Positions 1 to 43,515 of a stretch of 43,515 nucleotides of DNA are shown here, piece by piece. Position numbers and translations under genes: made by a program. The notes below the pieces were generated by a model. The model had not been told where the DNA came from and searched no databases. It worked only from the letters and a program-made list of their open reading frames with translations. Where the stretch lies: the IMG/VR virus record IMGVR_UViG_3300031566_000108, positions 1-43,515 of that record; one strand, written 5' to 3'. Numbering within the stretch: position 1 is the first letter of the stretch; the number at the start of each line of letters is the position of its first letter. Origin of the DNA: a virus.

Positions 1-138
1 TGTTTCCACCACCGGCGTCTCCGGCGACATCTCCGGCTGGGTCCTGCCGGCCACCCTGGTGACTTTCTATGTTTCCACCACCGGCGTCTCCGGCGACATC
101 TCCGGCTGGGTCCTGCCGGCCACTCTGAGGTATTTCTA
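1..138 (+). repeat. 69-bp tandem repeat (two copies, third degenerate)
   Basis: Bases 1-54 recur exactly at 70-123, a period of 69 bp (23 codons); a third copy starts at 139 and diverges after about 12 bases. The array encodes the LRR-like units of the partial fibre gene and may continue to the left of the window. The absence of synonymous differences in the first 54 bases points to recent duplication. Confidence 0.85.
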
Positions 139-538
139 TGTTTCCACCACCTCAGTTTCATATAAGTCGCCGGGCGGGGCTTTTACTAATGTCACCAATA
201 CCCTAACGAAGATTGATTTTGATGCCTGTGCCCTCTCCAGCCAGCAGGTAGATAATGTCCTGGCCGATTTAGTGGCGAGTGGTTCCATTGGCAATGAACT
301 TGATTTAGCTGGCACAGGGGCAACTGCTAATAAGCCACCGACGATTGAAGGTCTGAAGAATAAAATCATATTAGTCAATCGCGGGTGGACGGTGGTTATC
401 ACAGCGGGAAGGTCCGTATATGCCTCTCGCCCGATGTTCAGCCGCAAACGGCCCGAGCTATGGGCGGCAGCGACGGCGGCAGAAGAGGAGCAATGGCTAA
501 CAACGATGGCAAGCGATGTATGCGTGACTATTGGGTGA
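2..538 (+). CDS. Leucine-rich-repeat-like fibre protein, 3' end (partial)
   Basis: The frame is open to the left edge, so the real start is outside the window; the GTG at 59 is only an internal codon. The visible 178 residues start with two near-identical 23-residue repeats (S-T-T-G-V-S-G-D-I-S-G-W-V-L-P-A-T-L) and a third degenerate one, a leucine-rich-repeat-like pattern. A capping segment follows (IDF-x-A-C...QVDNVLAD...GLKNK-I-LVNRGW) which recurs in the next gene around residues 475-520. The last 45 or so residues are not repetitive and are unlike the next gene. Such repeats are common in phage and bacterial surface adhesins; a fibre or decoration role is inferred. It ends 8 bases before the next gene, so both are probably co-transcribed. 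Confidence 0.75.
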   Translation, partial: VSTTGVSGDISGWVLPATLVTFYVSTTGVSGDISGWVLPATLRYFYVSTTSVSYKSPGGAFTNVTNTLTKIDFDACALSSQQVDNVLADLVASGSIGNELDLAGTGATANKPPTIEGLKNKIILVNRGWTVVITAGRSVYASRPMFSRKRPELWAAATAAEEEQWLTTMASDVCVTIG

Positions 539-546
539 GCTGTTAA

Positions 547-3500
547 ATGGGTCTCCAAGAATATACATCCGGTGCGAATAACTTCACGGCCCAGGTGACG
601 GGCGACCATACCATTATCCTCATCGGCGGGGGTGGCGGCGGCGGTGGCGGCTCAACGGCTACGAATGGTGCTGGTGGTGGCGGCGGCGGTGGCGGCGGTT
701 GCTGCATCAAAGTCGTATCGCTTACAAAAGACCAGACGTATGCCTATGCTGTAGGTGCTGCTGGTGAAGGGGGCATACAGGGAGTACCTGGTACAGGTGG
801 AGGTAATACTACCTTCGTTGTCGGTGCAACAACCTATACGGCGGGCGGAGGTGGCGGTGGTGCTGAGAACGCAGCCAAATCTACCGGCGGAGCAGGCGGA
901 ACATCCACAAATGGTGACACGAACCGCACAGGGGGTGACGGCGGTACGGGAGCGACGGGTTCGGCAGGTGGCGGCTCTGGCGCTGGCACAACCGCTAACG
1001 GCAATGCAGGTGTCATTACGGCGGGCGGTGCAGCCGTCAGCCTCTACGGTGGCAAGGGTGGCGATGGCAAGATCGGCAACAACCTAACAGGAGATGCAGG
1101 TGAATCACGTGGCGGTGGTGGCGGAGGTGGAACGGGCAAGACAGGCGATGGGAATGTAGGCTATGCCGGATATGTCCGCATTACATGGGGGTCCGTTTAT
1201 ACCGAGACGGTTAATAATTCCATCGGGATCAGCGACAACAGAACGTTGCTTCGCAATGTCCATCGCACGATCTCCGATCCGTTGGGTCTAACCGATAGCA
1301 GAACAGTTATACCTACTATTATCACTTTTTATGGCACAACCGGCGTAACGGCCGTAACGCCATTATTTACATTTTCTTCTGGAACAGTCAAGGTCTATGT
1401 TGAAGGTGAGTATGTCGAAGACCTGACCAGTGGAGTTGCTGGCAACATAGCTTTAACGGAGGATGAGAAACTTGAATATGTGATTAGCGATTGGGATGCC
1501 ATCACAAGGATTGACATCAATGGGGATAAAGTTTCCGGCAACGTCAGTGGGTGGGTAATACCAACCACTATAATATCACTGAAATTAAATTCTACTTCTG
1601 TTTCTGGTGATATTTCTGGGTGGGTATTCCCCAATACTCTTGAGCAGTTGAATTTATCTGGTACTTCTGTTTCTGGTGATATTTCTGGGTGGGTATTCCC
1701 TGAAGGTGTAGTTACTGTCAATTTTTATTTACACTACACTTCCCTGACAGGCGACATTTCCGGGTGGACGTTACCATCTCTTTGTCAGGATTTGTATTTG
1801 CATCATACTTCTGTTTCGGGTGATATTTCCGGGTGGGTATTACCTACAGATTTTATGCTTCTTTATATAAATGATACGGCAATAGATTATGATTCATCGG
1901 GTGGTGCACTTGCAGACTATCCGATGGACCTCTCTCAGATCAACTTTAGTAGTTGTTTGTTGACTCAATCTCAGGTCGATAATGTTTTAGCTGATTGCGT
2001 GACCGGTGCTTCAACAAACAGAACACTTTGGATAGCGGGTACGAATGCCGAGCCTTCGGCCACTGGCCTGTCCAACAAAGCAATTTTGGTATCGAGGGGA
2101 TGGACTGTTGAGACTACAGGTGTTAACGAGTACATAAAAACAATCAACGATTCATTGGGCGTGACGGACGCAAGGACACTTATCAGAAACGTCTTGTGCA
2201 CGTTCGATGAGTCGATGGGGGTCGCGGATGACCGCAGCCCTGTCAATGCGACACTGCGCTTGGTGGCAGAGGCATTGGGTCTGACGGATGCTACAATCAG
2301 CACAAAAGGGATTCTGCGAATAATGGAAGAATCGCTGGGCTTGACCGATGCCAATGCAAAAAACGAAGGCAAATCTCTGTTAGACGGTCTGGGCATTGAA
2401 GATTCAATGTCACGCACTTACGTAGGTCTCAGAACGATAGCCGAATCGCTGGGCATAACGGACGATGCTGATTTTGCCGCTGTGTTTTTGCGAGCGTTAT
2501 CTGAATCCATCGGCTTGACCGATTCACGCTCAATAGTCAAGGGCCTTAACCGTACCGTCGCCGATACTCTGGGGCTGGCAGATGAGACGGTTCGTCTCTC
2601 TATCATGTTGAGAATCGTCTCTGAATCGCTTGGCATTACGGATGCTACATCGAGAGTTGTTGAGTCGAATAGGATGCTTGGCGACACGCTGGGCTTGAGC
2701 GACAGTCCTATGGTCTATGAGACGCTCGTCGCCATAGCCGAATCTTTAGGTGTCCTTGATGCAACGGCAAAGGGCGAAGGCAAAACACTTGCTGACGCCC
2801 TGGGGATGGCTGACGAGACGACAAGGGTTTCCGTTGTTGTGAGAGTCCTCACTGAGTCTTTGGGGTTGACTGATAGCACGTCAAAAGTATGGGTGGCTCT
2901 CAGAGTCCTCGCTGACGATCTCGGCCTTACGGATATCATGTCCGAGGTCTTCGTCCCAGCAGGCGCCGAACAATTCGAGCGAACGGTGAATGATGCGTTG
3001 GGACTTACGGACAGCAGCTCCAAAATTCACGTTGCGCTGCGGATACTGTCCGAGAGCCTCGGCCTGACGGATTCTATTGCCAGACTCTTCATCGTCAGCC
3101 GGCTCATTAGTGACAGCGAAGGTCTGACCGACGGGCGGGTTCTCGGTAGAGTTGTGGCGATGACCGACAGCCTGGGTCTGACAGATAGCCTCACAAAAGT
3201 GATGGTCATTCTCCGCACGCAGAACGACCCCCTGGCGTTGAGCGATTCGCTGACTTCGCTGCTCTCGATTCTGAGGACGGCCATGGATGCGATGGCCATA
3301 TCAGATACAGTATCCAAGGGTGAAGGCAAAACTTTGGCTGATTCCATCGGGATTACTGATTCGGCGACCCATGTTTACGGATGCCTGAAAACGATAGCGG
3401 ATTCTCTCGGCCTGGCTGACGACATTGGGCTGGTATGGGCAGTCATCAGGGAAGTCGCCGATGGATTAGGGCTCACAGACGCGATCGAGACGGACGGCGT

Positions 3501-4929
3501 TGGTGTTTATTTCAGGGTTATAAATGATGCTCTCGGCCTGAGCGATATCACAACAAGAAATTTCGTCGTCCTGCGTATTCTGTCGGAAAGTTTATCTGTA
3601 AGCGATTCAGTAATAAGCCTGTTTGCGATCAGCAAACTCATAAGCGATAGCGAGGGAATTACGGACGGCCTTACCTTGCGTAGGGTTTTGTCTATCACGG
3701 ACGCATTGGGGCTGACAGATGATTTCACGAAGCAATTGTCTATCGTCAAAACGCAGAGCGATGAGGTTGCCTTGACCGATGCTCTGGGTTCATTGCTTCT
3801 GATGCTTCGGACAGTACAAGAGAACATTGGAATTACAGATTCGACTTCTAAGGACGAACACAAATCGCTCTCAGAGTCAATCGGATTGACCGACTCAACT
3901 TCCCGCGTCTATGTCGCGTTGAGAACGATAGCCAATTCGCTCGGCATGACCGATGACATGACCCGCGTGTGGACAGTACTCAGGACTGTCAGTAACGCCC
4001 TGGGTATTACAGACCTGATGGATTACGAGGGCGTTGGCAACTTCGTCAAAACGATCAACAACACCGTGGGATTGACGGACGATACCTTGAAAGTCTGCGT
4101 TGTTCTCAGGGTGCTTTCTGAGACTCTCGGTCTGACTGACTCCATAGCCACGCTGTTTGCGATGAGCCGTTTCATCAGCGATAGCGAGGGTATCACGGAC
4201 GGCACGATCTTGGCCAGAGCGTTGTCGATAACAGACAGTTTCGGCATGACGGACGAGTTCAGCAGATTGTTGACTGTCGTGAGAACCGAGAATAACGCCG
4301 TTGGCATGAGCGATTCCATGTCACGTTTTATTGGTATCGTTCGAGCCATTATTGACCTGATGGGGTCAACGGATTCAGCTACCAAACTCCACGCCATGAT
4401 GCGGACAGTCTCGGACAGCATCGGCGTGGCTGATAGTTATTCGTCTGTTTGGTCAGTCCTGCGGACTATAGACGAGACAATGGGTCTTTCCGACCTTATG
4501 GACTATGACGCCGCAGGGATTATCGTTCGCATCATCAACGACGTTCTCGGCCTCACCGATGCCCGGTCAAAAGTCCATATCGCCCTCCGGGCGCTTACCG
4601 AATCGCTGAATATATCCGACTCCGTTGCTCGTCTGTTTGCCGTCAGCCGAATTGTCAGCGACTCGCAAGGGCTGACCGACAGCCTCGTTTTGGGCCGGCT
4701 CATCGCCGTGTCGGACACTCTCGGGATCACAGATTCCGTCGTGAAACTGATTGATTATCTGCGGACGCAGACCGATTCCATAGGAACGCTCGATGCCATG
4801 ATTAGAGTAATTCAGGCACTTCGGACGATAGAGGATGGCATGGGTATCTCGGACGTAGAAACGCATCAGTTCGATGCTTTGATTAAGGCGGCATGGGCTT
4901 TCATGGTCACGAGGCAAACGCATAGTTGA
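547..4929 (+). CDS. Giant repeat fibre protein: Gly-rich, LRR-like and ~46 LGLTD repeats
   Basis: 1460 residues, ATG start after a GGGTGA ribosome site. Residues ~20-215 are extremely Gly/Ala-rich, as in phage tail-fibre 'glycine-rich' domains. Residues ~220-255 hold two isolated D-x-L/I-G-I/L-T/S-D repeats. Residues ~330-470 hold four or five LRR-like V-S-G-D-I-S-G-W-V-x-P units homologous to the previous gene, followed by the same cap segment. From residue ~525 to ~1445 an array of about 46 repeats of 19-20 residues (R-T-I-A-D/E-S-L-G-L-T-D-S-x-S-x-V-x-V-x-L) fills the protein. There is no signal peptide or membrane span. I infer a long rod-like virion fibre; the family and fold of the LGLTD repeat are not known to me. 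It lies upstream of the head-tail connector genes, so a head fibre is as possible as a tail fibre. Confidence 0.8.
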   Translation: MGLQEYTSGANNFTAQVTGDHTIILIGGGGGGGGGSTATNGAGGGGGGGGGCCIKVVSLTKDQTYAYAVGAAGEGGIQGVPGTGGGNTTFVVGATTYTAGGGGGGAENAAKSTGGAGGTSTNGDTNRTGGDGGTGATGSAGGGSGAGTTANGNAGVITAGGAAVSLYGGKGGDGKIGNNLTGDAGESRGGGGGGGTGKTGDGNVGYAGYVRITWGSVYTETVNNSIGISDNRTLLRNVHRTISDPLGLTDSRTVIPTIITFYGTTGVTAVTPLFTFSSGTVKVYVEGEYVEDLTSGVAGNIALTEDEKLEYVISDWDAITRIDINGDKVSGNVSGWVIPTTIISLKLNSTSVSGDISGWVFPNTLEQLNLSGTSVSGDISGWVFPEGVVTVNFYLHYTSLTGDISGWTLPSLCQDLYLHHTSVSGDISGWVLPTDFMLLYINDTAIDYDSSGGALADYPMDLSQINFSSCLLTQSQVDNVLADCVTGASTNRTLWIAGTNAEPSATGLSNKAILVSRGWTVETTGVNEYIKTINDSLGVTDARTLIRNVLCTFDESMGVADDRSPVNATLRLVAEALGLTDATISTKGILRIMEESLGLTDANAKNEGKSLLDGLGIEDSMSRTYVGLRTIAESLGITDDADFAAVFLRALSESIGLTDSRSIVKGLNRTVADTLGLADETVRLSIMLRIVSESLGITDATSRVVESNRMLGDTLGLSDSPMVYETLVAIAESLGVLDATAKGEGKTLADALGMADETTRVSVVVRVLTESLGLTDSTSKVWVALRVLADDLGLTDIMSEVFVPAGAEQFERTVNDALGLTDSSSKIHVALRILSESLGLTDSIARLFIVSRLISDSEGLTDGRVLGRVVAMTDSLGLTDSLTKVMVILRTQNDPLALSDSLTSLLSILRTAMDAMAISDTVSKGEGKTLADSIGITDSATHVYGCLKTIADSLGLADDIGLVWAVIREVADGLGLTDAIETDGVGVYFRVINDALGLSDITTRNFVVLRILSESLSVSDSVISLFAISKLISDSEGITDGLTLRRVLSITDALGLTDDFTKQLSIVKTQSDEVALTDALGSLLLMLRTVQENIGITDSTSKDEHKSLSESIGLTDSTSRVYVALRTIANSLGMTDDMTRVWTVLRTVSNALGITDLMDYEGVGNFVKTINNTVGLTDDTLKVCVVLRVLSETLGLTDSIATLFAMSRFISDSEGITDGTILARALSITDSFGMTDEFSRLLTVVRTENNAVGMSDSMSRFIGIVRAIIDLMGSTDSATKLHAMMRTVSDSIGVADSYSSVWSVLRTIDETMGLSDLMDYDAAGIIVRIINDVLGLTDARSKVHIALRALTESLNISDSVARLFAVSRIVSDSQGLTDSLVLGRLIAVSDTLGITDSVVKLIDYLRTQTDSIGTLDAMIRVIQALRTIEDGMGISDVETHQFDALIKAAWAFMVTRQTHS
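2125..4880 (+). repeat. LGLTD repeat array (~46 units, with ~500-bp superrepeat)
   Basis: Units of 57-60 bp encode variants of D/E-S-L-G-L/I/V-T/S-D; I counted about 46 by eye. A higher-order period is visible: the non-repeat spacer with G-A/V-G...V/I-N-D/N...LGLTD recurs at about 2958, 3497, 4030 and 4510, each followed by the same order of sub-repeats, including an S-D-S-E/Q-G-L/I-T-D unit. Copies differ a lot at the DNA level, so the array is old and held by protein selection rather than recent slippage. Confidence 0.85.
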
Positions 4930-4932
4930 AAG

Positions 4933-5403
4933 ATGAAAATTAAGAAAACGAAACTATCGACCGGATATCACTATACCAGCAATGATTGCTGGAAGAAGAT
5001 TCAAGCGGAGGGCCTGCAACCCTATGAAATTCATAAGCAGGCGTTGGTCTCTCTTTTTAGAACACACTGCATTAGAGGCATCTGGCTTTGGGACATGAAA
5101 ATTACCGGTCTGGCTCACAGGGGTTGCATACTCTATCAAATGGCCCACAAGAATACCGTCAATGCAGTTCTTTTGCGTGTGAGATTTGACCGAAAAAAAA
5201 CCTTGCGTGTACCGGGTCATCCCGACGATAGGGTTACTCTTCTTCACTCCGGCCATTTAGAGAACCTTAAATATCATACGGGACAGGAAAAGGCTGTTAT
5301 TGTATGCGAACCTATACCACCGTCACAGATCGAGTTGGTTGAGAAGTACTGTTTACTGGATATCTGGAAACAGAAAGGGAAACGAAAGCGAAGGTCATTG
5401 TGA
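4933..5403 (+). CDS. Hypothetical protein, 156 aa
   Basis: ATG start three bases after the fibre gene stop, so translation is probably coupled. The N-terminus (Y-H-Y-T-S...W-x-x-I-x-x-E-G-L-x-P) resembles the opening strand and helix of small ADP-ribosyltransferase-like or RNA 2'-phosphotransferase-like folds, but I cannot identify the other catalytic residues, so this is only a weak hint. The C-terminus is very basic (K-x-K-G-K-R-K-R-R). No signal peptide or membrane span. Its place after the fibre and before a strong terminator makes it the last gene of that transcription unit. It could be a chaperone for the fibre or an accessory enzyme. Confidence 0.65.
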   Translation: MKIKKTKLSTGYHYTSNDCWKKIQAEGLQPYEIHKQALVSLFRTHCIRGIWLWDMKITGLAHRGCILYQMAHKNTVNAVLLRVRFDRKKTLRVPGHPDDRVTLLHSGHLENLKYHTGQEKAVIVCEPIPPSQIELVEKYCLLDIWKQKGKRKRRSL

Positions 5404-6078: not shown

Positions 6079-6717
6079 ATGAACTTTTGTGAATGTGGTT
6101 GCGGTGAGATGACAAAACCTGGCAACAGGTACGTGGCGCAACATCACCATAGAGGTAAGTCGCCTTCTCCAGAATCTAACGAGAAAAGACGGCAAACGCA
6201 GTTAGGCAGAAAGCGCTCTGAGAAACACAAGAAAACAAGGGCGGCCCATAAAGAGAATTGCCAATGTTTCTGCTGTAGGAATAAGAGAGGCGAACTCAAG
6301 GGTGACAATTGCCCCAATTATGGCCGACGACACACTGAAGATCACAAAAGAAAAGTAAGTAAAGTTCTCAGATCGAGAGGTGGGCACCGGTTTGATTGTC
6401 TGTGTCCATTCTGCAAAGCGAAGAAAGGCCAGCATCCTAATTGGCATGGTGGCATTTCGAGAGAAGGATACCCATGCAGATTCAATGAGAAATTGAAAGA
6501 GGATGTCAGAAAACGAGATGGGAATATCTGCCAGGTATGCAACAAGACTCGGGAAGAAAATGGAAGAAAGTTGGATGTTCATCACATCGATTACGACAAA
6601 GAAAATGTTGCGATGAACAATCTCGTTTCTCTCTGTAGAAGCTGTAACGTCAAAGTGAACAAAGACAGGGAACACTGGTCGAATTATTTTCTTCTGCGTT
6701 GGATATTGGTGGCGTAA
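6079..6717 (+). CDS. HNH homing endonuclease with NUMOD3-like motifs
   Basis: 212 residues. The N-terminal half is basic and Cys/His-rich (C-x-C-G-C-G..., C-x-C-F-C-C, C-L-C-P-F-C) with NUMOD3-type motifs (G-R-K-R-S-E-K-H-K-K and G-R-R-H-T-E-D-H-K-R-K) known as DNA-binding modules of phage homing endonucleases. The C-terminal part has an HNH core (C-Q-V-C...L-D-V-H-H-I-D-Y-D-K-E-N...N-N-L-V-S-L-C-R-S-C-N). It has lower GC than its structural neighbours, consistent with a free-standing mobile gene inserted between virion genes. There is no visible intron around it. It would nick or cut an allele lacking the insertion. Confidence 0.9.
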   Translation: MNFCECGCGEMTKPGNRYVAQHHHRGKSPSPESNEKRRQTQLGRKRSEKHKKTRAAHKENCQCFCCRNKRGELKGDNCPNYGRRHTEDHKRKVSKVLRSRGGHRFDCLCPFCKAKKGQHPNWHGGISREGYPCRFNEKLKEDVRKRDGNICQVCNKTREENGRKLDVHHIDYDKENVAMNNLVSLCRSCNVKVNKDREHWSNYFLLRWILVA

Positions 6718-6728
6718 AGGGGCATAAA

Positions 6729-7211
6729 ATGCAGGCTACCTACTCAGGACAGGCCAATGAAGTCGGCCTGCCGATAGTGGCTAAGGCCAGCGGCAATCCG
6801 ATTACAGCGGGGACGATCAACTTCTATCTGCGAGACGTGGATACGGGCGATTGGTTTCAGGGCTCCGACCAGACCTGGCAATCGAGCGAGTCCATTGCTG
6901 GCGCCGGCGGTCATGTCGCGGATGGCCATTGGTCGGTGTCTCTACCGACAGAAGCATGGCTCGACGGGCATCGCTATCGTCTCTATGCAAAAGAATCCGG
7001 CGATCTGCATATCCCCGTGGCCGACAGCATCCTGTGTCTGTTTGCCAATTTACTGCGGATTTCTTCGGCCTGGCTGATGGGAATATGGCGCGATAAACCT
7101 ACCGACTCCACCGTCAAACAGTTGCTCGACCCCGTGGATGGCACGACGGTGATTCTGGAAATCGCACTCAGTGAGACGACGCCGTACAAGACGGTGACAG
7201 TGAAGATATGA
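6729..7211 (+). CDS. Hypothetical virion protein, 160 aa
   Basis: I choose the ATG at 6729, behind an AAGGGG site, over an in-frame TTG at 6699 that would overlap the HNH gene. The protein begins A-T-Y-S-G-Q-A-N-E-V-G-L-P-I-V-A-K-A-S-G-N-P-I-T-A-G-T-I-N-F-Y-L, a beta-strand-rich pattern seen in adhesin or baseplate domains that hold short polymer-like modules. It contains several Trp residues and no enzymatic motif. It overlaps the next gene by ATGA, so the two are translationally coupled and this belongs to the head-tail/tail operon. Confidence 0.65.
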   Translation: MQATYSGQANEVGLPIVAKASGNPITAGTINFYLRDVDTGDWFQGSDQTWQSSESIAGAGGHVADGHWSVSLPTEAWLDGHRYRLYAKESGDLHIPVADSILCLFANLLRISSAWLMGIWRDKPTDSTVKQLLDPVDGTTVILEIALSETTPYKTVTVKI

Positions 7212-7669
7212 GGATACAGGGCAATGACCTGATGGCGTTTTTCACCGGCGGCGTGCTGGAGTCGATTGATACGCCGACGGCGCCGACCGTGTCAGGGACG
7301 GCCACCGAGCTTGATACGGAGATGCTGGAGGCGGTCGATGAGATTATCGCCGAGCTCGGAAAGGTGTTAACCTTTTGGGTGTATCCCACGGAGACCTACA
7401 ACCCGGCCACAGGCAAGAAGACAACCTCTGACGCGACACAATACAACAAAAAGGCCATTCCGCCTTATGAGGTGTCTTTGAAGTACGTTGACGGGGACCT
7501 GGTCAAGGTCGGCGATTTGGCGACGGGCGTGCCAGCGAAGGACATCGAGTTTACTCCAGAGAAGGGCATGAAGGTCAGCATCGACACAGCCATTTGGGTA
7601 ATTACGCGAGTAGCGCCGATATACAGCGGCGAATGGATTTGTCTATATCTGTTGCAACTAAGGAGATAA
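7208..7669 (+). CDS. Probable head-closure (stopper) protein
   Basis: 153 residues; start overlaps the upstream stop as ATGA. The middle and C-terminus (Y-N-P-A-T-G-K-K-T-T...P-P-Y-E-V...D-G-D-L-V-K-V-G-D...F-T-P-E-K-G-M-K-V-S-I-D...I-W-V-I-T-R-V-A-P-I-Y-S-G) follow the usual plan of small SH3/beta-barrel head-closure proteins: a disordered loop, a 'GDL' strand and a final strand describing what the value is measured against. Location directly before the HK97 gp10-like gene fits the standard siphophage order. The assignment rests on pattern and context only. Confidence 0.6.
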   Translation: MRIQGNDLMAFFTGGVLESIDTPTAPTVSGTATELDTEMLEAVDEIIAELGKVLTFWVYPTETYNPATGKKTTSDATQYNKKAIPPYEVSLKYVDGDLVKVGDLATGVPAKDIEFTPEKGMKVSIDTAIWVITRVAPIYSGEWICLYLLQLRR

Positions 7670-7673
7670 CACA

Positions 7674-7736
7674 ATGCCGTGCCATAAGGAAAAAAGAAAA
7701 GGCGGCGGGAAAGGCAAGAAAGGCAAAGGCCGGTGA
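7674..7736 (+). CDS. 20-residue Lys/Gly-rich basic peptide
   Basis: A textbook AAGGAGATAAC site sits just upstream of ATG 7674. The peptide begins M-P-C-H-K-E-K-R-K and continues with G/K repeats to a C-terminal G-R; 12 of 20 residues are basic, counting the His. Its TGA overlaps the GTG start of the gp10-like gene (GTGA), so it may act as a translational relay for that gene, as a nucleic-acid-binding peptide, or both. No family known to me. Confidence 0.5.
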   Translation: MPCHKEKRKGGGKGKKGKGR

Positions 7737-8131
7737 CGGACAACCTCGCTCAATTCAATCGAGAGATCGACGCCTTTGCCCGCAAGGTGCCGGATAGGGC
7801 CGTCACGCTGCACAAGAAAGTCGCGTTCGAGGCCCTACGCCGGCTGGTTTCCAAAACTCCCGTCGATACCGGCAGGGCCCGCGGCGACTGGCAGGTGACC
7901 ATTGGTGACCCGGCCACAGGACAGCTCGATGTGCTCGATGTCAGCGGAAGCCTGACGGTCGCCGCCGGTTTGGCGGCTCTTGCGGGTTTGCCGCCCTATC
8001 AAATCGTCTGGATCAGCAACAACGTCGATTATATCGAACGGCTGGAGCACGGGCACAGCAAGCAGGCGCCCGAGGGAATGCTGGCCGTGACTGTCGAAGA
8101 GTTGCGGGCGATGTTCAGGGAGGCGGCGTAA
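7733..8131 (+). CDS. HK97 gp10-like head-tail connector protein
   Basis: 132 residues from a GTG that overlaps the stop of the basic peptide. The pattern L-A-Q-F-N-R-E-I-D-A-F-A-R-K-V-P...V-A-F-E-A-L-R-R-L-V-S-K-T-P-V-D-T-G-R-A-R-G-D-W, then N-N-V-D-Y-I-E-R-L-E-H-G-H-S-K-Q-A-P-E-G-M, is the hallmark of the HK97 gp10 / neck protein family (long helix, 'TPVDTGRARGxW', 'YxxxxExGxSxQAPxGM'). The family sits at the interface between head-closure and tail terminator, matching its neighbours on both sides. Confidence 0.9.
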   Translation: MTDNLAQFNREIDAFARKVPDRAVTLHKKVAFEALRRLVSKTPVDTGRARGDWQVTIGDPATGQLDVLDVSGSLTVAAGLAALAGLPPYQIVWISNNVDYIERLEHGHSKQAPEGMLAVTVEELRAMFREAA

Positions 8132-8134
8132 CGC

Positions 8135-8542
8135 ATGACAAGCGAAGCCATAGCCAACGCGATCCGTAGCCGGTTCAAAAGCCAGGTGGCCGACGTGCTG
8201 GAGTTGCCGACGCACTACGACAATCACAAGTTCGACAACCCGGACAATGCCAAATGGTGCCGGTTGACGATCAAGACCGGCGAGACGTTTCAAATGTCGA
8301 TCGGCAGTCCAGACGGGCAGCGAGAGCGGACCCACGGCGTGATGATTGCCCAGCTCTTCGGGCCTATTGGCGAAGGGGACGGCGAGTTGCGGGAAATCGC
8401 GGACGCCGTCCGAGCGGCCTTCCGTAGGGTGACAGATACCGGCGTGACGTTTCGGACGCCGTCGGCTCACGAGCAGGGACTGTTCAGCGATTCATGGCAG
8501 ATCAATGTGGTCTGCCCATTCTATGCAGACGATATCGGGTAA
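8135..8542 (+). CDS. Tail terminator protein (DUF4128-like)
   Basis: 135 residues, starting three bases after the gp10-like gene. N-terminal helix (A-I-A-N-A-I-R-S-R-F) followed by strands, a central R-L-T-I-K-T-G segment, a second helix (E-L-R-E-I-A-D-A-V-R-A-A-F-R-R) and a final strand (W-Q-I-N-V-V-C-P-F-Y-A-D) match the alpha/beta fold of siphophage tail terminators of the DUF4128 type, which cap the growing tail tube. Position between gp10-like and tube genes is standard. Confidence 0.8.
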   Translation: MTSEAIANAIRSRFKSQVADVLELPTHYDNHKFDNPDNAKWCRLTIKTGETFQMSIGSPDGQRERTHGVMIAQLFGPIGEGDGELREIADAVRAAFRRVTDTGVTFRTPSAHEQGLFSDSWQINVVCPFYADDIG

Positions 8543-8563
8543 CGATTTTGAAGGGAATACAAA

Positions 8564-10105
8564 ATGACAATTAGTGACATCGCAAGAGAACAATGGGCGT
8601 TTGCTCAGGAGGACAGCTTCGGCGAGCAGATAGCGGGCCGGAACCTGCAAGTCGCACGGATCACCAGCGAATCGCTCAAGCAAATGGCGGACATTACGAG
8701 TTCGAGGGAGATCCGGTCCGACCGGCAGACGGCGGGCGTCGTGCGCACGCGCGTGGCCGTGGCAGGCAATATGGACTTCGAGCTGAGCTATGCGAGCTTT
8801 GACGATCTTCTCGCGGCGGCCCTGATGTCGGCTAACGTGAAGGCCCAGGGGACGTTGACGATGGACACGCTGCCGGCTACCAGCAATACCGTGACCATCG
8901 GCACTACGGTCTATACCTTCAAGGATACGTTGGCGGTAGCAAACGACATCAAAATTACGAGTGGCGATCTGCCGGCTACGAAGGCGAGCTTTGTCGCAAC
9001 CATCAACGGCACGGGCACTGCCGGAGTGGACTATTACGCCGGGACGACGACGCCCCACCCGTTAGTCGAGGCGGCAGCGTTCGTTGTCAATGCGTGCGTT
9101 TTGACGGCGAAAGCATACGGACTCACGGGCAACGCCATTGCCACGACTGAGACCTTTACTCCCGAGACGAATGTGTTTGACCATGACCATCTCGGAACCA
9201 CAAGGGCCGGGGCTGGATGGACGGCGCCCGTGACGGTGACGGCGATTACGATTAGCGCGTCAGATGCCGACAATTCGTTCAACGACTCGGGGAGTGGCTT
9301 CGGGAGCATTGTTCCCGGTGAATGGATCAAAACTTCCGGCTTCACGGCGGCGGCAGACAACGGGTATTTCAAAGTGCTCTCAGCAACGGCCGCTAAAATC
9401 ATTGTCGTGGGTGGGTTGCTCGTTACGGAGAGTGCGGGCCAGTCGCGCACGGTCAAGCAGGGCAGCTCCATTGTGAACGGAGTCACCAAAAACTCATTCA
9501 ATCTGGAGCGAACCTACAGCGATTTGACGACGGAACTGGCGCTCTACGTGGGCTGCATGATTAACCAGCTCGACTTGACCGTGGGGACGAACGCTATAGT
9601 CACGGGGAGCTTGGGCGTCATGGGCAAGATCGAAACGTCCGAGACGGCCAGCGGCGGGGCCGGATACGATGCAGCCAACGGCAACGAGATTCTCAACAGC
9701 ATCGACCACGTGGTGGGGGTGTACGAAAATGCGTTGGCCATTGACATACTCGATTTCAATCTGAGCCTGGTCAACAATCTGCGCGAACGATTGAAAATCG
9801 GTACGCTCGGTGCCTTCGATATCGGCACGGGGCAGGTGCAAGTCACGGGGACGTTTACCGCCTACTATCAGAGCAAGACGTTATACGACAAATTCCTGGA
9901 TTTCGGCAATACGTCTCTGGCCAAAGTCTTCCAGGACACCGCGGGCAACGGGTACGTGATCGACCTTCCGGCGGTGAAAATAACCGACGCTGCGCGTCAC
10001 GCAGGAGCTGGCATGGGCGACGACTTCAAAGTGCCGTGCACTTGGCAGGCGTATCGTGAGTCAACCGAAGACATCACGATCCGCATTGTGCGCTTCGCGG
10101 CATAG
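8564..10105 (+). CDS. Major tail (tube) protein with inserted domains
   Basis: 513 residues, longer than most siphophage tube proteins (roughly 200-350). The N-terminal ~105 and C-terminal ~220 residues look like the tube fold (early Q-W-A-F-A-Q-E-D-S-F-G; S-R-E-I-R-S-D-R-Q; C-terminal A-Y-Y-Q-S-K-T-L-Y-D-K-F-L...V-I-D-L-P-A-V-K-I-T-D). Residues ~105-300 carry Thr/Ala/Gly-rich beta-domain insertions, including T-I-G-T-T-V-Y-T-F-K-D and S-F-N-D-S-G-S-G-F-G motifs common in phage structural add-on domains. These insertions would decorate the outside of the tail. Followed by the chaperone and tape measure genes, as expected. Confidence 0.85.
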   Translation: MTISDIAREQWAFAQEDSFGEQIAGRNLQVARITSESLKQMADITSSREIRSDRQTAGVVRTRVAVAGNMDFELSYASFDDLLAAALMSANVKAQGTLTMDTLPATSNTVTIGTTVYTFKDTLAVANDIKITSGDLPATKASFVATINGTGTAGVDYYAGTTTPHPLVEAAAFVVNACVLTAKAYGLTGNAIATTETFTPETNVFDHDHLGTTRAGAGWTAPVTVTAITISASDADNSFNDSGSGFGSIVPGEWIKTSGFTAAADNGYFKVLSATAAKIIVVGGLLVTESAGQSRTVKQGSSIVNGVTKNSFNLERTYSDLTTELALYVGCMINQLDLTVGTNAIVTGSLGVMGKIETSETASGGAGYDAANGNEILNSIDHVVGVYENALAIDILDFNLSLVNNLRERLKIGTLGAFDIGTGQVQVTGTFTAYYQSKTLYDKFLDFGNTSLAKVFQDTAGNGYVIDLPAVKITDAARHAGAGMGDDFKVPCTWQAYRESTEDITIRIVRFAA

Positions 10106-18085: not shown

Positions 18086-20665
18086 ATGGATGCTATTTTA
18101 GCCTATCTGTTCTGGACGATCGTGACGGCGACGGTGAGCTTTGCCTTGGCCGAGGCGATGAAGAAAAAGCCGAAGATTCCCAATGCCAAACCATCGAACC
18201 TTGAGTGGCCTGAAATCGAGGAAGGCCGGCCATACGGGGTGATCTTCGGGACGCCGAAGTTCGTGTCGAATCCGACCGTTGCGTGGTGGGGGGATATTTC
18301 GACCCGAGCGATTCGCAAGAAAGTCGGGGAAAAGTTCGACTGGAAATGGGGCATGGGTGGGCACAAGGGCTCGCATAACCCGATTTATCAGACGGTCGGC
18401 TATCATTATTCGGCAGGGGTGGAATTTAAGCTCTGCCACGGCCCTATAGATGGCGTCAAACAGATTCGCGCGGCCGACAAGGTCGCATGGCCGAACCCGG
18501 ATGATCCGACCGAGTTGGCCGACGATGGCGAGACTTCAATCACTATCGACCTGCCGAACCTGTTCGGTGGCGAGGACGGCGAGGGCGGGATCGTCGGCAG
18601 TATTGATATCGAATACGGCGCTTCAAGCCAAGCCGTCAACGCTTATCTGGCGTCCAAGCTGGGAGCAGACATTAGCGCCGGCCGCGGGCTGGTCAGGGCG
18701 ATTCTCAAGCAGGTCAATATCGGCACGTCCAAATACCCGAAACCGTGGAGCTTTCTGCTGAAGCGCACGGATATCCTCGATGACGGCTCGCCGCAATGGT
18801 ACAAAGACAAAGCGGACATCAGCGGGGACCTGAATGCGGCCCACGTTTTACGCGAGTGCTATACAAACACCAGGTGGGGCTTAGGGTATTCGGACAGTCT
18901 CATCGACAGTACATCATGGCTGGCGGCGGCCGATACGCTGCACACGGAAGGCTTCGGCGTGAGTCGCCATTGGTACGATGCAAACGAGAGCATCGAGGAT
19001 TTGATTCGGGACGTGCTGACGACGATCAACGGTCGAATCTATCAAGACCCCGAAACCGGGCTCTTCGTGTTCAGACTGGCCAGAGAGGTCGTGGGAGAGC
19101 TTGAAAGTTTCGATGAGTCCGACATCGACGCCGTCGAGAATTTCGGCCGCGAGTGTTACGGCGAGATCCCCGACGTTGTGAACGTGCGCATAACGGACGT
19201 GCTCAATAACACGGTCACGGCGATTCCCGATCACGACATTGCGGTCATGGACATCCAGGGCGGCAAGTCGATTCCGCTGGAGCGGGACTTCTTCGCCGTC
19301 ACAAAGCCCGTTCTCGGCGGGCAACTTGCAGCCAGGGAGCGGCAACTTGTAACCTCGATGCTGGCGACGATGACAATCAAAGGCAAACGGACCATGGCGC
19401 ACCTGCGGCCCTTCGATGTGATCAAAATCAGTTCCGCAGCCCACCGCATCGTCCAGCTTGTCGTGCGCGTTATCGACACTAATTTTGGCACGCTCGAAGA
19501 CGGCAAGGTCACGTTGCATTGCGTCGAGGATGTTTTTAGGACACATGATGCTATTTTCTCGGCCCCGCCGGGTACGGGCTGGACGGACCCGGTTTCGGAA
19601 CCGGCGGTGGCCCCGAATCGCTTATTGGTCGAGGCGCCGTTCTGGAGCTTGGTGGTCGAGATAGGCCTGCCAGATCCCGAGATTATCGACGGCGACCAGG
19701 GCTGGCTCATGGTGGCCGCTCAAAAACCGAGCAGCGACGCCCTGGACTACGAAGCGTTCATTCGCCCGTCCGGGTCCGATCCCTTCGTGAGCGACGGGCG
19801 CGGAACCTTCACGCCAACGGCCACGCTGGCCGAGACTATGCCGTTGAATGCGGTGGACCAGATAGTTGACCTAGCCAACATTGTGAACCTGGATCAAGTG
19901 GCCGTGAATACCTATGCGATGGTGGGGAGTGAGATCGTCAAGGTGACGGCCGTCGATACGGCCAACAGCCGCGTGACCTTGGCACGAGGGGTTCTCGATA
20001 CAGTGCCAACCGCGCACTCAATAACCGATCGCATCTGGTTCCTTGGCTCGGCCAATTACATCGGGGCTGAACAGTACGAGGCAACCGACACGCCGGGCGT
20101 CAAGGTCTGCCCGCGCACGGGCAAGGGCCAGCTCGCCGAAGCCTCGGCGCCGATCGACAACGCGACGGCCTTCAACAGCCGGGCCATCCGGCCCTATCCG
20201 CCGGGCAACCTGAAAATCAACACAGTCAGCTATCCTTCGACTTTCACGGGCCAGCCTACGCTGACCTGGACTCACCGCGACCGCACACAGCAGATTACCG
20301 AGCTGGTCGAGCATGACGCCGCCGGCATCGGGCCGGAATCCGGCGTCACCTATACGCTGAAAATCTACGCCGCGGACAATATCCGGGTTCACACAGAGAC
20401 GGGGATCACGGGGACAACTTACGAATACACAGAGGCCCACGAGCTGTCCGACTTTGGCGGGTTGCAAACTCAGCTCCGCTTCGTGCTCTATGCTGTCCGT
20501 GCCGGATATGATTCCTGGCAGCAGTACGACCTTACGGTTCCCCGTGCGTTTGTCATAAACGATTCGGTCGGCCTTACTGATGCAAGAACAGTCGTCAGAA
20601 ATGTCTTCTGCACGTTCAACGATTCGGTCGGCCTTACTGATGAGGCAACGCCGGTTGAAGGCTGA
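18086..20665 (+). CDS. Large tail-tip (hub/attachment) protein with C-terminal LGLTD repeats
   Basis: 859 residues. Hydrophobic N-terminus (residues 1-23) then K-K-K-P-K-I-P-N-A-K-P, followed by R-P-Y-G-V-I-F-G-T-P-K-F-V-S-N-P-T-V-A-W-W-G-D, G-V-E-F-K-L-C-H-G-P-I-D-G-V, and a middle domain with L-I-R-D-V-L-T-T-I-N-G-R-I-Y-Q-D-P-E-T-G-L-F, all typical of 'phage-tail_3'/lambda J-like central tip proteins. Residues ~735-825 look like a fibronectin-III-like domain (L-T-W-T-H-R-D-R-T...T-Y-E-Y-T-E-A-H-E-L). The last ~35 residues are two LGLTD repeats (V-I-N-D-S-V-G-L-T-D-A-R-T-V-V-R-N) of the same kind as in the giant fibre gene. It is the last gene of the virion operon. Confidence 0.85.
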   Translation: MDAILAYLFWTIVTATVSFALAEAMKKKPKIPNAKPSNLEWPEIEEGRPYGVIFGTPKFVSNPTVAWWGDISTRAIRKKVGEKFDWKWGMGGHKGSHNPIYQTVGYHYSAGVEFKLCHGPIDGVKQIRAADKVAWPNPDDPTELADDGETSITIDLPNLFGGEDGEGGIVGSIDIEYGASSQAVNAYLASKLGADISAGRGLVRAILKQVNIGTSKYPKPWSFLLKRTDILDDGSPQWYKDKADISGDLNAAHVLRECYTNTRWGLGYSDSLIDSTSWLAAADTLHTEGFGVSRHWYDANESIEDLIRDVLTTINGRIYQDPETGLFVFRLAREVVGELESFDESDIDAVENFGRECYGEIPDVVNVRITDVLNNTVTAIPDHDIAVMDIQGGKSIPLERDFFAVTKPVLGGQLAARERQLVTSMLATMTIKGKRTMAHLRPFDVIKISSAAHRIVQLVVRVIDTNFGTLEDGKVTLHCVEDVFRTHDAIFSAPPGTGWTDPVSEPAVAPNRLLVEAPFWSLVVEIGLPDPEIIDGDQGWLMVAAQKPSSDALDYEAFIRPSGSDPFVSDGRGTFTPTATLAETMPLNAVDQIVDLANIVNLDQVAVNTYAMVGSEIVKVTAVDTANSRVTLARGVLDTVPTAHSITDRIWFLGSANYIGAEQYEATDTPGVKVCPRTGKGQLAEASAPIDNATAFNSRAIRPYPPGNLKINTVSYPSTFTGQPTLTWTHRDRTQQITELVEHDAAGIGPESGVTYTLKIYAADNIRVHTETGITGTTYEYTEAHELSDFGGLQTQLRFVLYAVRAGYDSWQQYDLTVPRAFVINDSVGLTDARTVVRNVFCTFNDSVGLTDEATPVEG
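20558..20643 (+). repeat. Two LGLTD repeats at the end of the tail-tip gene
   Basis: AACGATTCGGTCGGCCTTAC followed by TGATG occurs twice, 60 bp apart, with no mismatch, while the bases between encode A-R-T-V-V-R-N-V-F-C-T-F. The giant fibre gene has the matching pair R-T-L-I-R-N-V-L-C-T-F at about 2170-2205. The two genes lie 15 kb apart. Confidence 0.85.
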
Positions 20666-37969: not shown

Positions 37970-38032
37970 ATGAATAAGACGAAGTGCCTACAGTGCGGAG
38001 AGAAAGTCACGGATGACGCCGGAAGAATTTGA
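37970..38032 (+). CDS. 20-residue CxxC peptide
   Basis: ATG 37970 after GAGGCGACG. K-C-L-Q-C-G-E-K-V-T looks like the first knuckle of a zinc ribbon whose second half is missing. It overlaps the methyltransferase start (38013) by 20 bases, so it may be a remnant or a coupling peptide. Confidence 0.3.
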   Translation: MNKTKCLQCGEKVTDDAGRI

Positions 38033-39494
38033 AAACGAGTTCGTCAACAAGATCATCTGTGGGGATTGGGTCGAGACGCTCAAGACCCTGCCATCGGATA
38101 GATTCCACTGCTGTATCACGTCTCCTCCCTACTGGGGTCAGCGCAATTACGGGGTCGAAGGCCAGCTTGGCCTTGAGAGGACGCCCGAGGAGCACATCGA
38201 AAAGCTCGTGGTCGGCTTCCGCGAGGTCCGGCGCGTCCTGCGGCCCGACGGCGTGCTGTGGCTGAATTACGGGGACAAGCTATGGGGCGGCAAAGGTCGA
38301 AGTGCTCACGGTGGTTCGGAAAAACAGAAGGCCCGCTTTGAAAGAAACGAAAGTATCAGCAAGCCCCATCAGGAAATCGGTAAACCCGGCTGGACAGCCC
38401 CTGATGACGCTCGGCATGAAATCTTCAAAGCGAAAGACCTTCTCGGCTTGCCCTGGCGGGTGGCGTTTGCCTTGCAGGCCGATGGCTGGTGGTTGCGCTC
38501 GGATGTCATTTGGGCCAAGGCCCTGTCATTCTGCGAGAAGTACAGCGGCTCGACCATGCCCGAAAGCGTCAACGGCTGGCGGTGGGAGCGGTGCAGGGTG
38601 AAAGTGAAGAAAAGACCATCACGCGACAAACCTAATGGGGCGGGCGATAATATGATTCGTGTCCCAGGTTGTGAAAATGGCAGCACAAGACTTGATATGT
38701 CTCTTAAAGCCGAGTGGCAAGACTGTCCCGGCTGTCCAAAGTGCGAGCCGAACGGCGGCTACGTGCTGCGCAAAGGCTCGTGGCGCTGCACCAAGGCGCA
38801 CGAGTACCTGTTCATGCTGACCAAAAGCCCCCATTATTTCTGCGACATGGAGGCGGTGAAAGAAGAACAAGTCAAGGGAGCGGCCGGAAGTCGTTTTGAT
38901 ACAGGAAAAACGGCCGGACACGAAGAGAATCGCGCACAAGAAGGCTATCGAGAAAACAGCGGCCGCAACCTCCGCGACGTATGGGTTATCAATCCCCAGG
39001 CATACAAGGGCAGCCATTACGCTACCTTCCCGGAGGCCCTGGTCGAACCCTGCATCAAGGTCTCTACTTCCCAGAAGGGCTGCTGCCCGAGCTGCGGCGC
39101 GCCGTGGGCGAGAATCATTAGCAAAGGCGAATTGCGGGAACATCCAGCAAGAGCGAATCGAAATGTGCGTAACAAGGCTGATTATGACGGCACAGATTAC
39201 GCCAGACGCGAAAATACACTTGGATTAGTCGCTGACACCAAGACCCTCGGCTGGCGGCCCACCTGCAACTGTAACGCGGGCGATCCCGTCCCGGCCTTAG
39301 TGCTGGACCCGTTCTTTGGCTCAGGGACGGTGGGTATGGTCGCGGCAAGGCTCGGGCGCAACTACACCGGCATTGAGATCAACGGCAACTACATCACCGA
39401 GCAGGCCCAATGGCGAGTGCTGCAAGGCGAAACGGGAATGACGGCAGACGAGGCCCGGCAGGGCCAGCAGGCTTTGTTTGGAGCAACAAAATGA
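38013..39494 (+). CDS. Beta-class DNA methyltransferase (N4-C or N6-A)
   Basis: 493 residues. Motif IV T-S-P-P-Y-W-G-Q at 36-43 comes first, a long target-recognition region follows, and the AdoMet motif I (L-D-P-F-F-G-S-G-T-V-G-M-V-A-A-R-L-G-R-N-Y) is near residue 432: the beta-class order. SPPYW is most common in N4-cytosine and some N6-adenine enzymes. The middle contains Cys-rich knuckles (C-P-G-C-P-K-C; G-C-C-P-S-C-G-A-P-W). No restriction nuclease partner is nearby, so it likely protects phage DNA or regulates. C-terminus E-A-R-Q-G-Q-Q-A-L-F is shared with the next two proteins. Confidence 0.92.
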   Translation: MTPEEFENEFVNKIICGDWVETLKTLPSDRFHCCITSPPYWGQRNYGVEGQLGLERTPEEHIEKLVVGFREVRRVLRPDGVLWLNYGDKLWGGKGRSAHGGSEKQKARFERNESISKPHQEIGKPGWTAPDDARHEIFKAKDLLGLPWRVAFALQADGWWLRSDVIWAKALSFCEKYSGSTMPESVNGWRWERCRVKVKKRPSRDKPNGAGDNMIRVPGCENGSTRLDMSLKAEWQDCPGCPKCEPNGGYVLRKGSWRCTKAHEYLFMLTKSPHYFCDMEAVKEEQVKGAAGSRFDTGKTAGHEENRAQEGYRENSGRNLRDVWVINPQAYKGSHYATFPEALVEPCIKVSTSQKGCCPSCGAPWARIISKGELREHPARANRNVRNKADYDGTDYARRENTLGLVADTKTLGWRPTCNCNAGDPVPALVLDPFFGSGTVGMVAARLGRNYTGIEINGNYITEQAQWRVLQGETGMTADEARQGQQALFGATK

Positions 39495-41198: not shown

Positions 41199-41413
41199 TT
41201 GAACTCATCGGCACTATCTCGACCATCCTCGCCATTACAGGGGTGATCCTGAACAACAGGCGGCTCAGGGTGTGTTTTTTAGTGTGGCTGGTATCAAACA
41301 GCCTAACTTTAGTGATCCACGCCCAGACGGGCATCTGGAGCCTCGTGGCGCGTGACGCCATATTCCTGATTCTGGCCGTCGAAGGATGGTTCAAATGGAG
41401 GGCAAAGCCGTGA
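41195..41413 (+). CDS. PnuC-like small membrane protein, 72 aa
   Basis: ATGA overlap with the previous gene. M-I-E-L-I-G-T-I-S-T-I-L-A-I-T-G-V-I-L-N-N-R-R-L-R-V-C-F-L-V-W-L-V-S-N and two more hydrophobic stretches give three membrane helices. The N-N-R and W-L-V-S-N elements are like those of short PnuC-family phage proteins. A nicotinamide-riboside transport role is inferred, not shown. Confidence 0.7.
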   Translation: MIELIGTISTILAITGVILNNRRLRVCFLVWLVSNSLTLVIHAQTGIWSLVARDAIFLILAVEGWFKWRAKP

Positions 41414-43515
41414 ACGAACAAAACGCCATGCAAGCTTTTACACTACGCCCCTATCAGGAAGCGGCTGTCAGTGCCGGTCTCGACGCATTGAATACCCGCA
41501 AAAACGGCATCCTCGTACTGCCGACGGGCAGCGGCAAATCCCTCATCATCAGCGAGATAGCGCAGCGGGCCGGCGGTCGCTCAGTCATTCTCCAGCCCAC
41601 CAAAGAAATCCTCGAACAGAACCTCGCTAAGATGAAGTGCTATGGCGTCCGGGACATCGGCATCTATTCCGCGTCCATGAACAAAAAGACCATAGGCCAA
41701 GTGACCTTCGCCACTATCGGGACGATCATCAAACGCAAGCACGCCTTCGAAGCCTTCGACCGGGTGATTGTGGACGAGTGCCACCGCGTCAACTCCAAAG
41801 GCGGGCAGTACGAAGAGTTTATCTCACACCTGGGCCTGCCGACGATTGGCCTGACGGCTACTCCATACAGGCTTAGAAGCTACCGCGACCAGATGGGTGA
41901 GCCGGTGGCCGAGAGCCGTATCCTCACGCGAACGAGGCCGCGAATCTTCTCGCGTATTGCCCACGTGACGCAACTACCAGAACTCTTCGAGGCTGGCTAT
42001 TTAAGCGCCATCCATTACTCGCTTTGTGTGGACTACGATTCGCGTGAAATCCGGTCGAATAGTACGGGGCAGGGATACGATGACGCTTCCCTTGAGCGAT
42101 ACAACCAGCAGAAAAGTATCCCCGACAAGATCGTCGCCGAAGTCCTGCAAGAGTCCTCGAAGCACATTCTGGCCTTTACGCCGTTTGTGAGCGAATCACA
42201 AGCCGTGGTCGAGAAGCTGAAAGCGCTGGGCGTGCCTTGTCGGACCGTCACTGCTACGACCAGCAAAGACGACCGGGAGAACATTATCTGGCGATTCCGC
42301 AGCGGCCAGATCCGATGTGTGGTCAACGTGGGCGTTTTGTGCCTTGACGGTTTGACTGAAATTCTCACTGATTCTGGATGGGTTGGCAAAGATGCAATGA
42401 CCTACAAGCATAATGTAGCCGCATGGAAAGAGGATGGGACAATTGAATTTTCGCCACCTAAATATATTGTTCGACGGAACCGTAAACCAGACGAGCAAAT
42501 GGTTTTTGCCAAAGGCATGGCAAAAGATTTTCGTGTCACCGCAAATCACCGAATGATTATCGAGCATGGCCGGGCAAAATCTTGGCGAGTGGTTTCCGCC
42601 GAAGAAACGGTAGAACGAGCAATCACCATTCCAATAAGCGGCCATGCGCATCCTCGCCGAATGTCCATCAGCCAGGAAGTAATCACCCCAAATAAACGTC
42701 GCAGACGGGAGGTTGCACTCGCCTACAGCTATCGGAAACGTGGTATGGAATATAAGCAGTCGAATGTGGAGGCTGCTCGTACGGTGTCACGCAATCTTTC
42801 CTTCAAGCCGAAAGCCCCACATGAGGTCACCATGGACGAATGTAGGTTTATAGGGTTTTGGATTGGTGATGGTACTTTGTCTCCACGCTGTGAACTTTCG
42901 CAGTCAATGGCCTACCCGTTCATTATTCGATGGTTCGATAATCTTCTTGCGAAAATAGGATTCGCGCACTCAAGAAACATCCGACCGGGTTCAGCAGATC
43001 AGCGTGACGCCGTCATTTGGAGTATAGCCAGGGGTACAGGGTCTTGTGAGCAGGCACGGGCGAGCGGCTACTATCTCGTTGAGCCGTATTTGGATAAAGC
43101 GGGAAGCCTATTGCTTTGGGGATTCGATACTGAGCAGTTGGGAGCGCTACTTGAGGGATTCTGGATGGCCGACGGGAATCATGGCGACGGCATGAAGCCT
43201 AGTGGGCGAGGCCGGTCTGTAATCGGGGCACAAAAACAACTCTATGACATGTTGCAGGCTATTGGCGTGTGTCGTGGGTTCTCGATGACGATTCATTCAC
43301 GATCACGGACGAGAGAAAACCCGCGGCACGCGAAACAGTATCGGCTTTCGTGGAGAAAGGCGACACGGAGGAAGTTTCTGCGTGAGCGTCCCCGTTTTGA
43401 GGCTGGGTGGAAGCCGGAGGAGGTATGGTGCGTAACGTCCAGTACGGGATATATTGTTACCAGGCGAAACGGGCGAGTTGCCATCGTCGGCAACACGACG
43501 GGTTTTGATTATCCC
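41410..43515 (+). CDS. SF2 helicase with intein (partial at right edge)
   Basis: Start GTG 41410 overlaps the previous stop (GTGA), behind GGAGG; ATG at 41428 is an alternative. 702 codons are visible and the frame is open at the edge. N-extein: L-R-P-Y-Q-E (Q-motif-like), Walker A L-P-T-G-S-G-K-S (37-44), V-D-E-C-H (122 region, DEAD/DEAH box class), L-T-A-T-P-Y-R (motif III), then domain 2. After residue 310 the frame enters an intein; the C-extein begins T-T-G-F-D-Y-P at the edge. Probably unwinds DNA in phage replication or repair. Confidence 0.9.
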   Translation, partial: MNEQNAMQAFTLRPYQEAAVSAGLDALNTRKNGILVLPTGSGKSLIISEIAQRAGGRSVILQPTKEILEQNLAKMKCYGVRDIGIYSASMNKKTIGQVTFATIGTIIKRKHAFEAFDRVIVDECHRVNSKGGQYEEFISHLGLPTIGLTATPYRLRSYRDQMGEPVAESRILTRTRPRIFSRIAHVTQLPELFEAGYLSAIHYSLCVDYDSREIRSNSTGQGYDDASLERYNQQKSIPDKIVAEVLQESSKHILAFTPFVSESQAVVEKLKALGVPCRTVTATTSKDDRENIIWRFRSGQIRCVVNVGVLCLDGLTEILTDSGWVGKDAMTYKHNVAAWKEDGTIEFSPPKYIVRRNRKPDEQMVFAKGMAKDFRVTANHRMIIEHGRAKSWRVVSAEETVERAITIPISGHAHPRRMSISQEVITPNKRRRREVALAYSYRKRGMEYKQSNVEAARTVSRNLSFKPKAPHEVTMDECRFIGFWIGDGTLSPRCELSQSMAYPFIIRWFDNLLAKIGFAHSRNIRPGSADQRDAVIWSIARGTGSCEQARASGYYLVEPYLDKAGSLLLWGFDTEQLGALLEGFWMADGNHGDGMKPSGRGRSVIGAQKQLYDMLQAIGVCRGFSMTIHSRSRTRENPRHAKQYRLSWRKATRRKFLRERPRFEAGWKPEEVWCVTSSTGYIVTRRNGRVAIVGNTTGFDYP
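42340..43494 (+). mobile_element. Intein with LAGLIDADG endonuclease
   Basis: 385 residues inside the helicase, interrupting motif V (V-V-N-V-G-V-L | T-T-G-F-D-Y-P). Starts with Cys (C-L-D-G-L-T-E-I-L), has the block B T-A-N-H at intein residues 67-70, two LAGLIDADG-like motifs (F-I-G-F-W-I-G-D-G near 170; L-L-E-G-F-W-M-A-D-G near 270), and ends V-A-I-V-G-N with Thr as the +1 residue. The usual penultimate His before Asn is Gly here. It would self-splice post-translationally and home into intein-less alleles. Confidence 0.92.

Follow-up and report, generated by a model that had tools for sequence, protein, structure and literature searches.

A long LGLTD repeat array as the probable stalk of a fibre-like protein in an uncultured tailed virus, with similar repeats in archaea

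What does a virus do with a protein in which one short motif recurs 46 times in succession? The question is raised by a gene on the plus strand at positions 547–4929 of IMG/VR virus record IMGVR_UViG_3300031566_000108, of which we analyzed a 43,515-nucleotide stretch (positions 1 to 43,515; hereafter, the window). The gene encodes a fibre-like product of 1,460 aa, composed of a glycine-rich domain, two repeats, a leucine-rich repeat (LRR)-like insert, 46 further repeats with the motif LGLTD and a C-terminal cap. From its sequence, we consider the array to be probably a beta stalk of conserved length that belongs to an adhesion fibre of the virion. Repeat stalks with adhesion domains are already known and ordinary for phages; what is new is this family of repeats, how closely it resembles archaeal giant proteins and the fact that it also occurs on the tail hub.

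Results

A position-specific scan identified 48 LGLTD units in the fibre protein, including 46 contiguous units that form the main array (2122–4866, plus strand, residues 526–1440) and an earlier pair located between the glycine-rich domain and the LRR-like insert (1189–1308, plus strand, residues 215–254). The unit core in the window array is D-x-L-G-[LI]-T-D and the period is 20 residues with 18- and 22-residue variants; the 45 spacings within the array were 20 in 32 cases, 18 in eight, 22 in three, and 19 and 26 once each. The scan placed 47 positions over the score cut-off, compared to at most two in each of 200 composition shuffles, and because the matrix behind the scores had been trained on this array itself, the test excludes composition only. 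Self-identity across residues 525–1444 (mean 8.3%) peaked at lags of 178 (25.6%) and 20 residues (23.7%), revealing a superrepeat of nine units (178 aa, 534 bp) at 2965–4866 on the plus strand. Its blocks start at 2965, 3499, 4033 (eight units) and 4513 (six units) and contain the last 32 units of the array, while the first 14 (2122–2964) fall outside the register. The original prediction for this locus, made by a model from the letters and open reading frames alone, had described about 46 LGLTD units at 2125–4880, and the scan bears this out. Its division of the array into four blocks of ~500 bp holds for the last 32 units, as the 534-bp superrepeat, but not for the first 14, and it overlooked two unit pairs, at 1189–1308 and at the C-terminus of the tail hub (20534–20653).

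The superrepeat could also be compared between viruses. Blocks 1 and 2 of the window were 71% and 74% identical to blocks 2 and 3 of L012, a related virus, compared to 41–52% for other blocks of the window. A block tree paired window and L012 blocks across the viruses (support 94/91 and 100/99), with no close L012 partner for window block 3. The ratio of nonsynonymous to synonymous substitution rates (dN/dS) between window and L012 was ~0.16 over 354 codons, with dS at 1.17 and synonymous sites near saturation. By these comparisons, superrepeats of different viruses are orthologs of one another and evolve under purifying selection. Based on the cross-virus block identity and the dN/dS, we conclude that the unit order is old and maintained, and that the array is not being homogenised. 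Array length appears to change by whole blocks.

The pattern search proposed along with the original prediction was run on DNA, using a degenerate pattern of two L-G-[LIM]-T-D motifs spaced 20 residues apart. Viral contigs contained 37 matching stretches and genome contigs 16, and a protein search added L001. Seven of the sequences that fit the pattern (L013, L015, L026, L034, L051, L054 and L057) were excluded as GLTDGETDADG-like low-complexity frames without the unit. With low-complexity frames removed, 34 arrays with at least five units (658 units) were left. They came from the window, from 24 further viral contigs, two of which contributed two frames each, from five archaeal frames, from the actinobacterial L048 and from L050, which belongs to a Sedimentisphaerales bin and whose contig also carries a phage capsid gene. 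Among 294 genomes from the phylum of L050, a match at E ≤ 1e-15 was found only in L050’s own genome.

Across 648 distinct units, position +5 was D in 98%, position -1 was D, E or N in 99% and position +2 was G in 89%, with hydrophobic residues at +3 in 98% and at +1 in 93%; there is one conserved Gly per 20-residue unit. Odd positions are large hydrophobic or charged (I, R, I, D, L, L, D, V, R/K) and even positions are small. In viral units, the even columns were 71% S/T/G/A/N and 7% charged and the odd columns 49% hydrophobic and 36% charged, with a like odd/even pattern in archaeal units. Spacings were also mostly even over the 34 arrays (553 even versus 27 odd); the search pattern itself favours 20-residue spacings, and with these excluded the viral arrays still had 96 even versus 24 odd. 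Because of the two-residue alternation of large or charged with small residues and the even spacing shifts, we read the unit as probably a beta strand through most of its length, with helices disfavoured.

Structure prediction, suggested as a check on the original prediction, was run with AlphaFold for the window superrepeat and for the L022 array, in which all spacings are 20. Both models were all-beta and of low confidence, with a mean predicted local distance difference test (pLDDT) of 41.8 and 58.3, respectively, which could reflect a shallow alignment or an obligate oligomer. The L022 model contained strands of up to 17 residues separated by 3-residue turns at x-L-G. Because of the low confidence, we make no choice between two folds that could accommodate such units.

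It is quite possible, going by the L022 model, that the array is a monomeric beta-solenoid rod with one unit per coil, a rise of ~4.8 Å and a length of ~22 nm. Compared to the PDB, this model resembled parallel beta-helices and solenoids, including CsgA, pectate lyases and CAP1 (VIA-align Z 8–12, maximum 12.1, over 100–140 residues), and compared to BFVD it matched one uncharacterised phage protein (TM 0.86). Solenoids of the CsgA and pectate-lyase type likewise use ~20 residues for each coil, and the backbone predicted here is similar to theirs, but LGLTD has no sequence match to them and the likeness comes from a low-confidence model (pLDDT 58) of L022 rather than of the window. The window model (pLDDT 42) had no fold match with Foldseek, and Z values of such size can occur for repeat models without kinship.

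Possible as well, if somewhat more tentatively, is an intertwined trimeric shaft resembling the beta-spiral of adenovirus fibres, which would be beyond monomer prediction. Phage fibres are mostly trimeric. The strict alternation, the Gly turn in every unit and the poor monomer model (pLDDT 41.8) would suit this arrangement, and the adenovirus triple beta-spiral is similarly fibrous, with short repeats, alternating residues and a turn glycine. However, its repeat has about 15 residues, whereas LGLTD units are predominantly spaced at 20 and also at 18 and 22; a trimeric state would have to be assumed, and archaeal cell proteins have similar arrays.

Next to these structural comparisons, we searched sequence databases for the repeat. 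The window array matched PHROG 12240 (function unknown) in five stretches (E = 2.9e-22), as did L012 (E = 1.1e-27); compared at the level of its profile, this is the same repeat family, and it carries no function, fold or architecture. Beyond this, the array matched no sequence family of Pfam, NCBIfam or the PDB significantly and in one piece; what was found were chance matches, either sub-threshold or made up of several fragments. This agrees with the earlier statement that no known fold could be assigned. A PDB profile search with the repeat also found none. Scattered Pfam matches to the arrays (TAF, HTH_50, PEX-2N, Homeodomain and others) were rejected because no single stretch passes alone, making them sums of chance fragments. 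Using the whole protein, one superrepeat and four other viral arrays as queries, tblastn against 50,697 phage records yielded no true relative, and no description of the motif strings was found in the open-access literature. The only matches, which L014 and archaeal L060 produced to gp26 of Mycobacterium phage Aminay, were rejected as they lay on the strand opposite to the gene. Aminay gp26 itself (L064:5340-6749) has a Gly-rich C-terminal domain preceded by a different repeat of 20–21 residues, GLSVTPTLSVAG, an architecture similar to that of the fibre gene with an apparently unrelated repeat.

Judged by profile, the LGLTD-type unit is not restricted to phages, since very similar units form long arrays in giant proteins of Nitrososphaeria, which are ammonia-oxidising archaea. 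With a profile that included two archaeal rows, 50 of 150 sampled Nitrososphaeria genomes matched at E ≤ 0.001, and the open frames concerned reach up to 4,736 aa. These arrays share the 20-residue period, an E/D-x-L-G-[LM]-T-D core, the small-residue alternation and 18-residue variants; L065, for example, has 56 scored positions of a near-perfect TATRSATVSLTENLGLTDTA repeat. They co-occur with an NHL-propeller-like stretch and differ from the viral arrays in being probably cellular and in the size of their frames. A profile that drew on no sequences other than the window and its close relatives scored 319 bits against L060 (163 when reversed) and 197 against L046 (90 when reversed). Forward scores exceeded those of the reversals in nearly all listed pairs, with the exception of L045 (180 versus 210 bits); reversed arrays also score because the motif is periodic and near-palindromic. 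The likeness between viral and archaeal repeats is firm at the level of profiles, whose scores are compatible with either common ancestry or convergence. In one Nitrososphaeria genome (G007:C1:61728-65768), the match lay in tandem units of ~270 bp, in a frame with repeated TGA codons, mostly five per match.

The domains that flank the array are consistent with an adhesion protein. The N-terminal glycine-rich domain (568–1188, plus strand, residues 8–214) passes the gathering cut-off of PF21722 Gly_rich_2 (27.9 versus 24.3 bits) and matches phrog_863 ‘tail fiber assembly’; it is thus a Gly-rich tail-fibre domain of this kind, which differs in that it precedes the stalk. The LRR-like insert (1324–2115, plus strand) is built of ~23-residue ‘SVSGDISGWVxP’ (GDISGW) units and matches LRR_4 at E = 0.0014, under the family cut-off. 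It is 49% identical to the 3' end of the upstream gene (2–538, plus strand), which contains LRR-like GDISGW units as well and continues beyond the window edge. At the other end, the C-terminal cap (4867–4926, plus strand; ..LIKAAWAFMVTRQTHS) has the motif LIKAAWAFMVxRQTH in common with L012, L035, L050 and L044, and more weakly with L032, while the N-terminal domains differ. Gly_rich_2 was joined to the array in L041, as in the window, and just under cut-off in L032; in other relatives the array was joined to Laminin_G_3 (L044) or BNR (L001), or stood beside a weaker Sortilin/BNR-like match (L033).

As expected of an adhesion fibre of a tailed phage, the array gene lies within the virion structural module. 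In the window it is followed by genes for head closure Hc1, neck1/tail completion, the tail terminator and the tail tube (7208–10105, plus strand), and neck1 and tail terminator genes are also downstream of the array gene in L012, where a right-handed beta-helix gene adjoins it. The array gene lies between major capsid and tail genes in L032, follows the capsid gene in L016 and L050, and is near head protease and terminase genes in L017 and L041; the examined neighbour in L042 had no match. Placement near capsid, neck or tail genes is common, then, but not universal. Together with the long regular rod, this context favours the virion rod of the original prediction and makes presence in the virion itself probable.

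A second location of the repeat was found by searching the window with the fibre protein. The tail hub or tail-tip protein (18086–20665, plus strand, 859 residues), identified by phrog_1101 ‘tail protein’ (E = 1.4e-232) and with relatives in many cultured siphophages, carries two LGLTD units at its extreme C-terminus (20534–20653, plus strand). In the DNA of these units, 72 bases align with the start of the main array (2143–2214). Hub relatives at 63–71% identity end likewise, L077 having two units and L078 one, and all finish in TDxATPVEG; the hub sequence of L076 is the same as the window’s and does not count as independent. Judging from these hub-end units, the fibre would likely attach in the region of the tail tip. 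A separate 24-residue open frame (L079:3001-3075) is near-identical to a hub stretch close to the end (GYDSWQQYDITV) and stands alone, without the rest of the hub gene and without the repeats.

Several other genes were observed in the window. Immediately 3' of the fibre gene, a small open reading frame (4933–5403) with a HYTSxxCWxKIxxEGLxPY motif had no match in Pfam or PHROG and has a homologue at the same position in L012’s contig (L091). A free-standing HNH endonuclease gene (6079–6717) separates the fibre and head-closure genes. The tail tube protein (8564–10105, 513 aa) matches ~250 positions of Phage_tube_2 spread over residues 12–483 and therefore carries a large insert. Similarly, the Pfam match of an N6_N4 DNA methylase (38013–39494) consists of two stretches over residues 32–355 for ~180 profile positions, suggesting an internal insert. 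Finally, a DEAD/ResIII helicase frame (41386–43515), cut by the window end, contains an intein-like insert that starts with CLDGLTEILTDSGW and ends with VGN before T.

Discussion

We propose that each LGLTD unit would form a long beta strand and a tight turn at D-x-L-G, and that the units would stack into a stiff rod, with their number determining its length. Over longer time scales, rod length would be altered by duplication or loss of nine-unit blocks. Such a rod could keep adhesion-type domains distant from the particle, Gly-rich and LRR-like here and lectin-like or beta-propeller in relatives, with the conserved C-terminal cap as the probable anchoring or assembly end and the tail tip, based on the hub-terminal units, as the probable attachment region.

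Four points weigh against this proposal: both structural models are of low confidence, the adhesion-type domain is N-terminal, which is opposite to the usual polarity of tail fibres, the repeats of the hub may serve as a passive linker, and, with the fibre genes located upstream of those for the neck, gene order fits a fibre on the head or neck just as well as one on the tail. The last point leads to the idea of a long appendage on the capsid or neck, comparable to head fibres or to the fibritin of T4, through which the virus would first, and reversibly, contact its host. The array gene follows the major capsid gene or just precedes Hc1, neck1 and tail terminator genes in several viruses, and for some head fibres, for example in phage 7-7-1 (PMC12796354), host binding has already been proposed. 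We nonetheless regard this location as unlikely, as gene order alone does not fix the position of a fibre and the repeat unit at the tail-hub C-terminus in three related viruses favours the tail end.

A bolder extension of the stalk proposal would make LGLTD an undescribed fibrous beta building block common to tailed phages and ammonia-oxidising archaea, and the hub units a docking stub on which the fibre rod stacks edge to edge, joining fibre and hub by a continued repeat; taken as a whole, this is rather improbable. Least probable is the hinge or metal-binding rod of the original prediction, in which ladders of Asp would hold calcium or another cation: despite the Asp at +5 (98%) and D/E/N at -1 (99%) of the 648 units, the Pfam search yielded no known metal-binding motif or family, RTX-type or other, and no calcium-binding repeat family (RTX or calcium beta-roll) among matches to the fibre protein, Asp alternates with hydrophobic residues and with Arg/Lys on one face of the predicted strand, where internal salt bridges are equally likely, and nothing points to flexibility.

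Stalk repeats determine the reach of an adhesin from a particle or cell. The LGLTD repeat is long and regular, is found in many uncultured tailed viruses and occurs in very similar form in about one third of the sampled Nitrososphaeria genomes, and from its sequence it looks like a widespread, overlooked building block of molecular stalks. The unit at the hub C-terminus offers a concrete idea of how a fibre may be attached, and many orphan proteins of viruses and archaea would gain an annotation from a single structure.

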